64,000 nt of DNA, taken from positions 1-64,000 of the forward strand of contig JAITXT010000021.1 of the NCBI GenBank assembly GCA_031284585.1, given 5' to 3'. Made by a program: the position numbers and the translations under genes. Below, one piece after another: positions 26,219 to 30,693 of this stretch. How positions within the stretch are numbered: position 1 is the stretch's first letter; every line of letters starts with the position of its first letter. This DNA comes from Acholeplasmatales bacterium (lineage in GTDB: Bacteria; Bacillota_I; Bacilli_A; Acholeplasmatales; Acholeplasmataceae). The notes under the pieces were generated by a model. The model did not search any database. It was not told the DNA's origin and worked only from the letters and a program-made list of their open reading frames with translations.

Positions 26219-26314
26219 ATGAATGTTGACAAATATAAAAAAAATAGAATATTGATTTTGAGTTCGAATCTCTCTCTCTCTCTCTCTCTCTCTCTCTCTC
26301 TCTCTCTTAGATAA
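26219..26314 (+). CDS. Short leader ORF running through the TC repeat
   Basis: A 31-codon frame starting at an ATG behind an excellent GAGGAG. It encodes MNVDKYKKNRILILSSN, then six Leu-Ser pairs from the dinucleotide repeat, then LR and TAA at 26312-26314. Adding one TC unit would move translation into a frame open to TAA at 26415-26417, overlapping the ATPase start codon at 26407. Losing one unit gives an immediate TAG. It may therefore act as a slippage-controlled leader rather than encode a functional peptide. No homology is recognised. Confidence 0.5.
   Translation: MNVDKYKKNRILILSSNLSLSLSLSLSLSLR
26269..26306 (+). repeat. (TC)19 dinucleotide microsatellite
   Basis: Nineteen uninterrupted TC units, plus one further T. 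It is the only long simple repeat in the window, which stands out in a compact AT-rich genome. Tracts of this length are prone to slipped-strand mispairing. Its position is 89-100 bases before the AAA+ gene start. Confidence 0.97.
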
Positions 26315-26406
26315 ATACGTAGGGATAACTTATAATAGGTATAAAAAGATAATAGATTTCAGTAGTTTCCTAAATTTTCATATTAGTTATTGTTTTGGTG
26401 ATATTC

Positions 26407-28059: not shown

Positions 28060-30026
28060 TGATTAGAAAAGTTTTTGAAGATTATACTTACACAGAAGAA
28101 ATAAAAGTAAAGAAAACTATAAAAGAGGAAATAGAAGAGGTTTATTATGATAAAATAGCTCGTTCAGAAATGGTTTATGAACCACCTACTGGAGTCACAC
28201 ATTGTTTGCATTGTGGTGACAGATTAATAGATTCGATGTGGTCATATACTACTTCTAACGGAAAATATTTATGTCCTGATTGTTGGTTTAATAAAACAAC
28301 ATCTTCCCAAAAAGATAGATACAGGGAAAAAGCTCAGAAAATGAGTCAAGGTGGATATAGTTATAAGACTGTTTACGATTCTAAAAGAAAGACGAGAACT
28401 ATTACTAAAGACAAGGAAATTGAGATAGATGAGACTGTTACTCAAAATGGACATAGATTAGTTATCCCGTTTGAAATAAAATACGATATTAACAATGAAA
28501 TAAATAAACATAATGTTAAAATTGATATTCTGGGAAATTATTATAAAAATCGTAGTTTTTTTCCTCAAAAGTATATTTCAGATGAGAAAATAGAGAATGA
28601 CTCTGTTTGGTATAATGCGTCAAGTTATAGTGAAGCAATATCAAAATTGCATCGTATATATCATAAAGATAAAGTAAAAATATTTAATATAGGTAATATT
28701 CCTTATAACGAAATTATAGTTGATGAAAAGCAAGTTTTGAAAGAATTTTTGGATGTTGTTGGATTTTATCCGAATGTTCCAGCATATATTCAAGGGCATC
28801 CATTAAATATGTATAATAACCATAGAACAAATGAAGTATCTATAGATAAGATTATTACTTTTTACTGTAATTTATCAATAAATAGTCATTTAGATTATGG
28901 TCACTATAAAAATAGAGGAATCATAATTTATAGTTTAATAGATTATTTACTTGAAAAGGACTTTAAAATTAGTTTGATTTTATTAGATGCGACTTTTATT
29001 GAAGGGGAGACAATTATTCAAGAATTTGAACCTCAAATCTTCAGTAAAATTTCTAACGAAAATCCGAACTATACAAGTTTATTTGAAGAACAAACAAAAA
29101 AACTGGATTTTCTTTATAATATGATTACAAACATTTATTTCTATAGAGTACTTTTACTGGAAAATAAAACTAATATCATTAAAAAATCAAAACTTAGTGA
29201 GAAATGGAATGATGGGTTTGGATACTATTTAAAGAATGAAGATTTAAGAAATATTTGTGGACTAGGTGATGAAACAATAATTTTTGGAGATCCAAGTGAA
29301 CATGGGATAAGTGGGTTATACTTAGATGATGATTTTATAAATACTATGGAATCTATTGGAAGTGATAGTAAATTAATTGATCAAGATAGTTCTGAAGTAT
29401 ATTCGAAGACGAGTGAAATTCCAGTTAAAAAAGTCATAAAAAATAGAAATATTACTAAATTAATTCATGTTACTGCAGAAGAAAATATACCATCGATTAA
29501 AGAAATAGGTTTATTACCAAAAATAGATTTAGAAAATAAAAATGTAAAATTTCACCAAAATGATTATTTAAGACTAGATAAACATAAAGATGCGATTTGT
29601 TTATCAGTTTCTGAACCAAACGATTTTCTATTTAGGGAGTTTACGCATAGAAATCCAAATATTAAGTACAAAGTTATCGAAATAAATCCAGTTATTCTAT
29701 TCGAAAAAGATGAAAATAAGCAAGAAATAGAAAAGATATATTCAGATTACAATGCTGCATCAAGATTCTCAAAAAAAAGTTGTAGTGATATGGAAATAAT
29801 GTTTCAAGATAGATTAAGACGAAAAGCTAAAATTCATACTAGAGATAATTTAGAAAGTTATAATCCAACTAGTGGTCAGGCTGAAATACTTTATTTTGGG
29901 AGTATTGATCCAAAATATTTTTTAAATATATATGATTATACTGTTAAACCTGATAAATTTCACATAAATGATAGTGAGTTTAAAAATAAAAAAAGGAGAA
30001 TTTATGAAACAACCACAGACAAGTAA
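28059..30026 (+). CDS. Zinc-ribbon protein with C-terminal DarT-like ADP-ribosyltransferase
   Basis: 655 residues. (1) A zinc ribbon with C49/C52 and C72/C75. (2) A middle region (about 130-430) with a CobT/DUF7192-like flavour, e.g. NRGIIIYSLIDYLLEKDF (285-302), consistent with partnering the upstream ATPase. (3) Residues about 463-627 match the DarT/DUF4433 fold: LIHVTAEENIPSIKEIGL (H470), ICLSVSEPN, KYKVIEINPVILF, MFQD, and PTSGQAEIL with the presumed catalytic E609. DarT enzymes ADP-ribosylate bases in DNA. TAATG coupling with the ATPase; overlaps the NADAR gene by 23 bases. The middle-domain assignment is tentative. Confidence 0.78.
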   Translation: MIRKVFEDYTYTEEIKVKKTIKEEIEEVYYDKIARSEMVYEPPTGVTHCLHCGDRLIDSMWSYTTSNGKYLCPDCWFNKTTSSQKDRYREKAQKMSQGGYSYKTVYDSKRKTRTITKDKEIEIDETVTQNGHRLVIPFEIKYDINNEINKHNVKIDILGNYYKNRSFFPQKYISDEKIENDSVWYNASSYSEAISKLHRIYHKDKVKIFNIGNIPYNEIIVDEKQVLKEFLDVVGFYPNVPAYIQGHPLNMYNNHRTNEVSIDKIITFYCNLSINSHLDYGHYKNRGIIIYSLIDYLLEKDFKISLILLDATFIEGETIIQEFEPQIFSKISNENPNYTSLFEEQTKKLDFLYNMITNIYFYRVLLLENKTNIIKKSKLSEKWNDGFGYYLKNEDLRNICGLGDETIIFGDPSEHGISGLYLDDDFINTMESIGSDSKLIDQDSSEVYSKTSEIPVKKVIKNRNITKLIHVTAEENIPSIKEIGLLPKIDLENKNVKFHQNDYLRLDKHKDAICLSVSEPNDFLFREFTHRNPNIKYKVIEINPVILFEKDENKQEIEKIYSDYNAASRFSKKSCSDMEIMFQDRLRRKAKIHTRDNLESYNPTSGQAEILYFGSIDPKYFLNIYDYTVKPDKFHINDSEFKNKKRRIYETTTDK

Positions 30027-30693
30027 ATTAGCATTTATAGTTAAAAACAATAAGATTTTTGAGAAGGTATTTACTTTTGATTTTTATGGAGGTTTTGCGA
30101 TATCGCAAAAACAAAAAACAATTGATGCTTTTCATAGTGAAATTGCTAAATATGGAGATTTTAAGGTGCTTGAGATATCAAGTAAATCCAGGAACCCTAT
30201 AGGGAATGCTTTGAGTGCGTTTAATTTGCTTTTAGATATCAAGGGAAATAAATATCCTGTTGAGTGTATCTATCAATCTTCAAAAGTTTTTAACGATAAT
30301 ATTCAATATAAAAATCTATTATATGCAACTCCTCCAGTGGCAAAAAAGACTATTCAAGATAATGTTTTTACAATGGAATTAGAACTTATTAGTTTTAATT
30401 GCTTTGGTAAAGTTTTCCCATTAAATCCAGTTACTTTTTTCTATGATTATATTTATGTTGCTGCTCTTTACCAAAATCCATCTATTGCTAGTGAAGTAAT
30501 TAATTATGATTGTTTTACAGATGTTGAATTTAATTATAAAAAACAAGTTGCTTCTCAAGCAAGATCTTGTGCAATTTATATATATTTAAAAAATAATAAT
30601 CTTCTCGAAGAGGCAATAAGTGATATAGAGAAATTTAAGGAGATTTATGGCTTGGTTATTATTCCATATAATAAAATTTTGGAATTAAATTAA
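30004..30693 (+). CDS. DarT1-associated NADAR-family protein, likely antitoxin
   Basis: 229 residues. Distinctive segments are FDFYGGFAISQKQK (25-38), VLEISSKS (55-62), NALSAFNLL (68-76), VECIYQSSKVF (86-96), FFYDYIYVAAL (145-155) and FTDVEFN (171-177). I recognise these as the family found next to DarT1 toxins, related to YbiA/NADAR N-glycosidases; E87 sits where NADAR proteins have the 'E-x-x-x-Q-x-x-K' catalytic element. NADAR antitoxins remove ADP-ribose from guanine in DNA. AAAAGGAGA sets the ATG at 30004, inside the end of the toxin gene, a typical coupled toxin-antitoxin layout. Biochemical role is inferred. Confidence 0.78.
   Translation: MKQPQTSKLAFIVKNNKIFEKVFTFDFYGGFAISQKQKTIDAFHSEIAKYGDFKVLEISSKSRNPIGNALSAFNLLLDIKGNKYPVECIYQSSKVFNDNIQYKNLLYATPPVAKKTIQDNVFTMELELISFNCFGKVFPLNPVTFFYDYIYVAALYQNPSIASEVINYDCFTDVEFNYKKQVASQARSCAIYIYLKNNNLLEEAISDIEKFKEIYGLVIIPYNKILELN

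Follow-up and report, generated by a model that had tools for sequence, protein, structure and literature searches.

DarTG1 of Escherichia coli C7 and Geobacter lovleyi is the described system whose components most resemble those of the operon reported here. The C7 DarT1 toxin is a single-domain protein of ~200 aa encoded in a two-gene operon; its residues R52, D54, N104, Q150 and E152 are tied to the handling of NAD, DNA or guanine, and E88, K95, K115 and D171 of its NADAR partner are needed for antitoxin action (PMC11543638). A second point of comparison is provided by the MoxR AAA+/vWA pairs, among them NorQ-NorD, where the vWA domain inserts a finger into the pore of the ring and NorD touches NorQ through its C terminus (PMC13036017). 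Such pairs have been proposed to gate toxic effectors in the MoxR-vWA ternary conflict systems (Kaur et al. 2020, PMC7159879). We examined an operon that combines elements of these systems in a 64,000-nucleotide stretch of an Acholeplasmatales genome (hereafter the window), known from one incomplete assembly (~77% complete).

The initial annotation described three tightly coupled genes, and the open reading frames, the TAATG junction between genes 1 and 2 and the 23-base overlap between genes 2 and 3 were all confirmed (Table 1). The left edge of the gene set had been placed at 26219, which is the ATG of a separate leader ORF from which no frame reaches gene 1. A role for this ORF as an N-terminal extension of gene 1 was rejected, as in its frame there is a stop ahead of the gene 1 starts and the two are not joined in any repeat state. 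No ribosome-binding site is evident for gene 2 itself, and its translation seems, from this arrangement, to depend on that of gene 1, whereas gene 3 has a strong site (AGGAG, 29994-29998) lying inside gene 2; this difference would favour an excess of antitoxin. A scan for promoters and terminators performed no better than shuffled sequences, and a tRNA-like T-arm before the TC repeat was discarded since ARAGORN gives only a tRNA-Cys at 480-553. The operon does not lie in a clear defence island. An AAA_14 ATPase gene at 23637-25004, 1.4 kb upstream, strongly matches the PADLOC candidate defence family PDC-S01 (4.4e-99), and an AlkD-like DNA alkylation repair gene of unusually low GC (0.21) lies directly upstream of the leader at 25370-26071.

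Table 1. Features of the operon and its leader (positions in the window)
Feature	Position	Strand	Description
Leader	26203-26314	+	Shine-Dalgarno-like AGGTGAGGAG (26203-26212), ATG at 26219; 31-aa ORF in the assembled repeat state
(TC)19T dinucleotide tract	26269-26307	+	39 nt; candidate slipped-strand switch
Gene 1	26407-28059	+	550 aa, AAA+ ATPase; ATG start, in-frame alternative TTG at 26395
Gene 2	28059-30026	+	655-aa fusion: zinc-ribbon-like N terminus, DUF7192 (vWA-like), DarT1
CxxC (49,52) ... CxxC (72,75)	28203-28283	+	Zinc-ribbon-like; weak profile matches only
DUF7192 domain	28536-29378	+	Gene 2 residues ~160-440; vWA-like AAA+ partner (predicted)
DarT1 ADP-ribosyltransferase domain	29421-29936	+	Gene 2 residues 455-626; homology to E. 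coli C7 DarT1
Gene 3	30004-30693	+	229 aa, DarT1-associated NADAR antitoxin

The proposed identity of gene 1 as a coiled-coil CobS/MoxR-like AAA+ ATPase was borne out. Residues ~311-443 match Pfam AAA_5 above the cut-off (E=2.5e-10), further matches were obtained to CobS chains in the PDB and to the phage CobS-like family PHROG 249 (2.7e-54), and the motifs are intact, comprising Walker A (GPAGTGKS, 314), Walker B (LFLFDEVD, 371), the sensor-1 asparagine (in AGNT, 417) and the arginine finger (in LDRF, 440). The N-terminal 300 residues look helical or coiled coil, and this region is longer than in the closest cellular relatives; matches to ZorA (1e-3) were judged to reflect coiled-coil similarity.

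The DUF7192 domain of gene 2 was overlooked by the initial annotation, as were the CxxC...CxxC segment and the repeat-bearing leader. Residues 180-310 match DUF7192 (PF23822, 8.2e-12), the region is also matched by phrog_1909 (2.5e-13), and alignment of relatives extends the domain to the limits given in Table 1. Pfam lists DUF7192 (PHROG 1909) as of unknown function. A model of a stand-alone DUF7192 relative (24 sequences, pLDDT 84.6) had as its sole PDB matches below 0.001 four NorD vWA domains in complex with NorQ (E 2.9e-5 to 5.6e-4, probability 1.00, with modest TM-scores of ~0.3). Among viral proteins, phage CobT/vWA proteins came next after the DUF7192 family itself, and the model of gene 2's own domain gave a weaker match in the same direction (E=2e-3). 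In the alignment the metal site is degenerate, with N/S-x-S variants at the first position and not a complete DxSxS-T-D. We conclude from the modelled fold that DUF7192 is likely to be a vWA-like partner domain whose metal site has degenerated. The match to NorD vWA makes genes 1 and 2 a pair of the MoxR-vWA type, in which the vWA subunit carries a fused DarT1. This also lends support to the suggestion that the operon is a regulated or triggered version of a DarT-NADAR pair, since gene 2 holds a vWA-type partner domain for the ATPase. The CxxC pairs of gene 2 are absent from stand-alone DUF7192 relatives.

The C terminus of gene 2 had been likened to DarT, with E609 as a putative active-site residue, and both points stand. 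The Pfam DarT score lies just under threshold (21.8 bits against a cut-off of 22.5), phmmer matches the solved E. coli C7 DarT1 (8baq) at 2.6e-20, and, in an alignment with viral and relative DarT1 sequences, R505, D507, N565, Q607 and E609 align with the five C7 toxin residues named above, E609 falling on the catalytic E152. A leucine occupies the position of the oxocarbenium-stabilizing M71. The full-length AlphaFold model of gene 2 had a pLDDT of ~30 over the DarT region; DarT rows were misaligned in the underlying alignment and were left out, and the DarT part of that model is unusable. As the full-length model is too poor over this region, the assignment of an ADP-ribosyltransferase, E609 included, rests on homology to a solved structure, and on these grounds we firmly place the C terminus among DarT1-type enzymes. 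Gene 3 likewise belongs, as had been suggested, to the DarT1-associated NADAR type: it matches PF22397 (E=1.6e-65) and the solved G. lovleyi NADAR (8bat, 6.5e-34), and its E87, K94, K114 and D173 correspond to the four C7 antitoxin residues, D173 (the D of FTDVEF) being the aspartate typical of DarT1-linked NADARs. The general NADAR family PF08719 has no match in the genome, and the specific PF22397 was needed for detection. A further NADAR gene was seen in a phage-like contig (L118, 3440-4654), immediately downstream of a short ORF that starts like DarT (YFYHFTDTRNLPSI).

Surveys of other genomes showed that the AAA+ gene and its partner have a wide distribution of their own. An AAA+ gene followed by a DUF7192 gene of ~250-370 aa was found in genomes of Acholeplasmatales, other Bacilli, Clostridia and Christensenellaceae and also in the class survey, and the species-genome scan gave 11 cellular loci at which the adjacency is kept without DarT, as it is in dozens of phage contigs; this indicates that the two genes are a functional pair. 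No DarT1 was present in the surveyed AAA+/DUF7192 loci. Phages of Staphylococcus, Listeria and Mycobacterium carry gene 1-like ATPases (421 records), and in phage Stab21 the ATPase gene is followed by an 846-bp gene with no function assigned. DUF7192 looks like a degenerate form of the vWA domain whose partners, in phages as in Bacillota, are CobS-like AAA+ ATPases. Variants of the arrangement include one locus (L025, 2-3677) with near-duplicate AAA+ genes in tandem on either side of the DUF7192 gene and a smaller, third AAA-like gene after them; L032 and L036 too possess an additional small AAA-like gene. The AAA+ motor had been regarded as an addition to a DarT-NADAR pair, a view that the existence of the AAA+/DUF7192 pair without DarT reverses: the ATPase is not an add-on and it is DarT1-NADAR that joined a pre-existing pair. 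Plain DarT1-NADAR pairs exist in the same order, Acholeplasmatales, where related DarT1 toxins carry differing N-terminal extensions (L008 8866-9978, L013 295-1488 and L009 9069-10028), one relative's extension holding a glycine-rich hydrophobic stretch, and DarT1 thus seems to be readily fused in this order.

The initial annotation had proposed a survey for recurrence of the trio. No recurrence was seen in any survey, and among the genomes and collections searched the fused trio was found only in the window; 84,980 species genomes were scanned with a pair of short peptide patterns, which divergent cases escape. Viral contigs yielded no close relatives of gene 2 or gene 3, phage records contained no gene 2, and in plasmids only the DarT domain was matched. 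Chromosomal synteny was uninformative as an empty-site test because only rpiB-upp was clearly shared in six relatives. 

The leader suggests a further layer of control. The TC tract begins 50 nt after the leader ATG, which has a strong ribosome-binding site, and tract length sets the reading frame towards the start of gene 1, as expected for a phase-variable locus. In the assembled repeat state the leader is in a short frame that stops 92 nt before gene 1, while with +1 or -2 TC units the ORF would be 66 or 64 aa with a stop at 26417; one frame in three ends on the gene 1 start codon (+11 nt from the ATG, chance ~0.066). CT tracts of at least 20 nt occur only three times in the assembly and were absent from the relatives searched. 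The leader of another contig of this genome (C8) is homologous, with an identical 50-nt spacing from ATG to repeat and 60/90 identical positions over ATG -40 to +50 (shuffle maximum 50; 0/20000 reached 60), and here too exactly one frame in three ends on the start codon of the next gene (+8, chance ~0.028). This C8 leader (L113, 1061-1600, - strand) precedes a GmrSD_N gene (DUF262-type; type IV restriction) that a stop cuts short after 108 codons. Phase variation is suggested by the presence of a homologous leader with the same geometry before this GmrSD-type gene. The model of translational coupling does not fit the third CT-repeat leader (C10), because it ends 33 nt short of a gene that is equipped with a ribosome-binding site of its own. 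Behind the C10 leader (L119 from 1113; C10:84012 to the contig end) lies an open frame spanning 4,291 codons or more, hydrophobic at its N terminus, which probably encodes a giant surface protein; the first 1000 residues have no match in Pfam. An RNA hairpin hiding the gene 1 start received no support (z=+0.98). We infer, from a single assembled repeat state, that the TC tract may act as a phase switch through translational coupling of the leader to gene 1.

We give a probability of about one in two to the reading that these genes form a toxin-antitoxin operon with DarT1 serving as the output domain of an AAA+/vWA machine of the MoxR type. Homology establishes the identities of the parts (AAA+, DUF7192, DarT1 and NADAR), which are real and well supported, and the mechanism is a proposal from a single occurrence. 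The most likely form of this mechanism is a motor-gated, phase-variable DarT1-NADAR system with a probable anti-phage role, where gating and switching are inferred, phage defence is suggested by analogy with DarTG1 (PMC11543638), contact of the ring with the vWA domain by analogy with NorQD, and toxin gating by comparison with conflict systems of the MoxR-vWA kind (PMC7159879). Gene 1 would form a ring that binds the DUF7192 domain and would use ATP to hold back, release or position DarT1. The trigger would probably be phage, perhaps sensed via the zinc-ribbon or the coiled coil, and triggered DarT1 would add ADP-ribose to guanines of single-stranded DNA, halting replication, while NADAR would erase background modification. 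In one of the three repeat states, translation of the leader would end on the gene 1 start codon and so couple the two. Several observations count against this reading: the full trio was found once, the metal site of DUF7192 is degenerate, the stronger vWA match belongs to a relative and TM-scores are modest, a leucine stands at the M71 position, the C10 leader does not fit coupling, a single repeat state is seen, and a clear defence island is absent. A broader proposal, which we offer only tentatively and which may well not hold, is of an immune system subject to phase variation, with a MoxR/vWA motor that gates the guanine-DNA ADP-ribosyltransferase fused to it; the widespread, unexplained AAA+/DUF7192 pair would then be a modular sensor-gate able to acquire toxin domains.

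The main rival to a DarT1 output domain is the accidental fusion of two independent modules, whereby a chance event joined an ordinary DarT1-NADAR pair to the end of an adjacent AAA+/vWA pair of phage origin, and the motor has a separate job and does not regulate the toxin. This reading is somewhat unlikely but deserves serious consideration, given that in relatives the AAA+/DUF7192 pair is found by itself with housekeeping genes on either side, that it is frequent in phages, that DarT1 domains of the same order bear varied and unrelated N-terminal extensions, and that the fusion was found a single time. However, the gene 2 ORF is intact and all three proteins keep their catalytic residues, translation of the toxin appears to be linked to that of the ATPase, and carrying a permanently fused toxin would be a burden on a function unrelated to it.

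Two other readings were considered. The motor might, instead of gating DarT1, deliver it to a DNA or replication substrate, so that guanines are ADP-ribosylated in DNA that is invading the cell or being replicated. MoxR-vWA pairs remodel targets that they have bound (PMC13036017) and the zinc-ribbon-like CxxC pairs are peculiar to the fusion protein, but no DNA-binding domain was identified with confidence, and we consider this reading improbable. Still harder to sustain is an addiction or stabilization module of a mobile element devoid of any defence role: DarT1-NADAR on its own already constitutes a toxin-antitoxin pair and the AAA+/DUF7192 core is related to phage, yet no integrase, tRNA attachment site or plasmid genes were seen beside the operon, which lies between rpoC-side genes and rpiB-upp and has a GC content (0.26-0.27) similar to that of the window (0.285).

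Triggers of DarTG-type toxins are poorly known. The fusion links these toxins to an AAA+/vWA pair and makes two questions testable, namely whether such a pair controls a toxin and what it senses. CobS-like ATPases of the gene 1 kind are present in hundreds of sequenced phages and in scattered Bacillota and their real job is unclear, while for Pfam DUF7192 the fusion suggests a fold and a partner. If the leader repeat works, a toxin operon would be phase-switched by means of a leader peptide coupled to it.

Compared with known systems, the operon shares with DarTG1 the toxin domain, the antitoxin family, the catalytic residues and the toxin-antitoxin order (PMC11543638) and differs in that DarT1 is the C-terminal part of a fusion and that an ATPase as first gene and a repeat-bearing leader are added. 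It has the order of AAA+ gene and vWA-like partner seen in MoxR AAA+/vWA pairs, especially NorQ-NorD (PMC13036017), to whose NorD vWA domain the fold search of the DUF7192 relative points, and in CobS-CobT-like phage pairs (PMC8651126); in contrast to these, DUF7192 is short, its metal site is degenerate and it carries an ADP-ribosyltransferase toxin. DarT1 sits on the C-terminal side of gene 2, the side by which NorD contacts NorQ. The ternary conflict systems have in common the AAA+/vWA pair but need a third core protein, namely VMAP, iSTAND, FtsH or a beta-propeller (PMC7159879), none of which was detected by Pfam in genes 1-3 (bpMoxR scored 12.9 bits against a cut-off of 27), and the word NADAR is not present in the main text of that study. 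CmdTAC (PMC11618068) similarly combines an ADP-ribosyltransferase toxin and an antitoxin with an extra folding or sensing component against phage, although CmdC is a chaperone and CmdT modifies mRNA, whereas here an AAA+ pair accompanies a DNA guanine transferase. While the DarT1-NADAR toxin-antitoxin system itself was already known, the fusion of DarT1 to the vWA-type partner of an AAA+ motor looks new.
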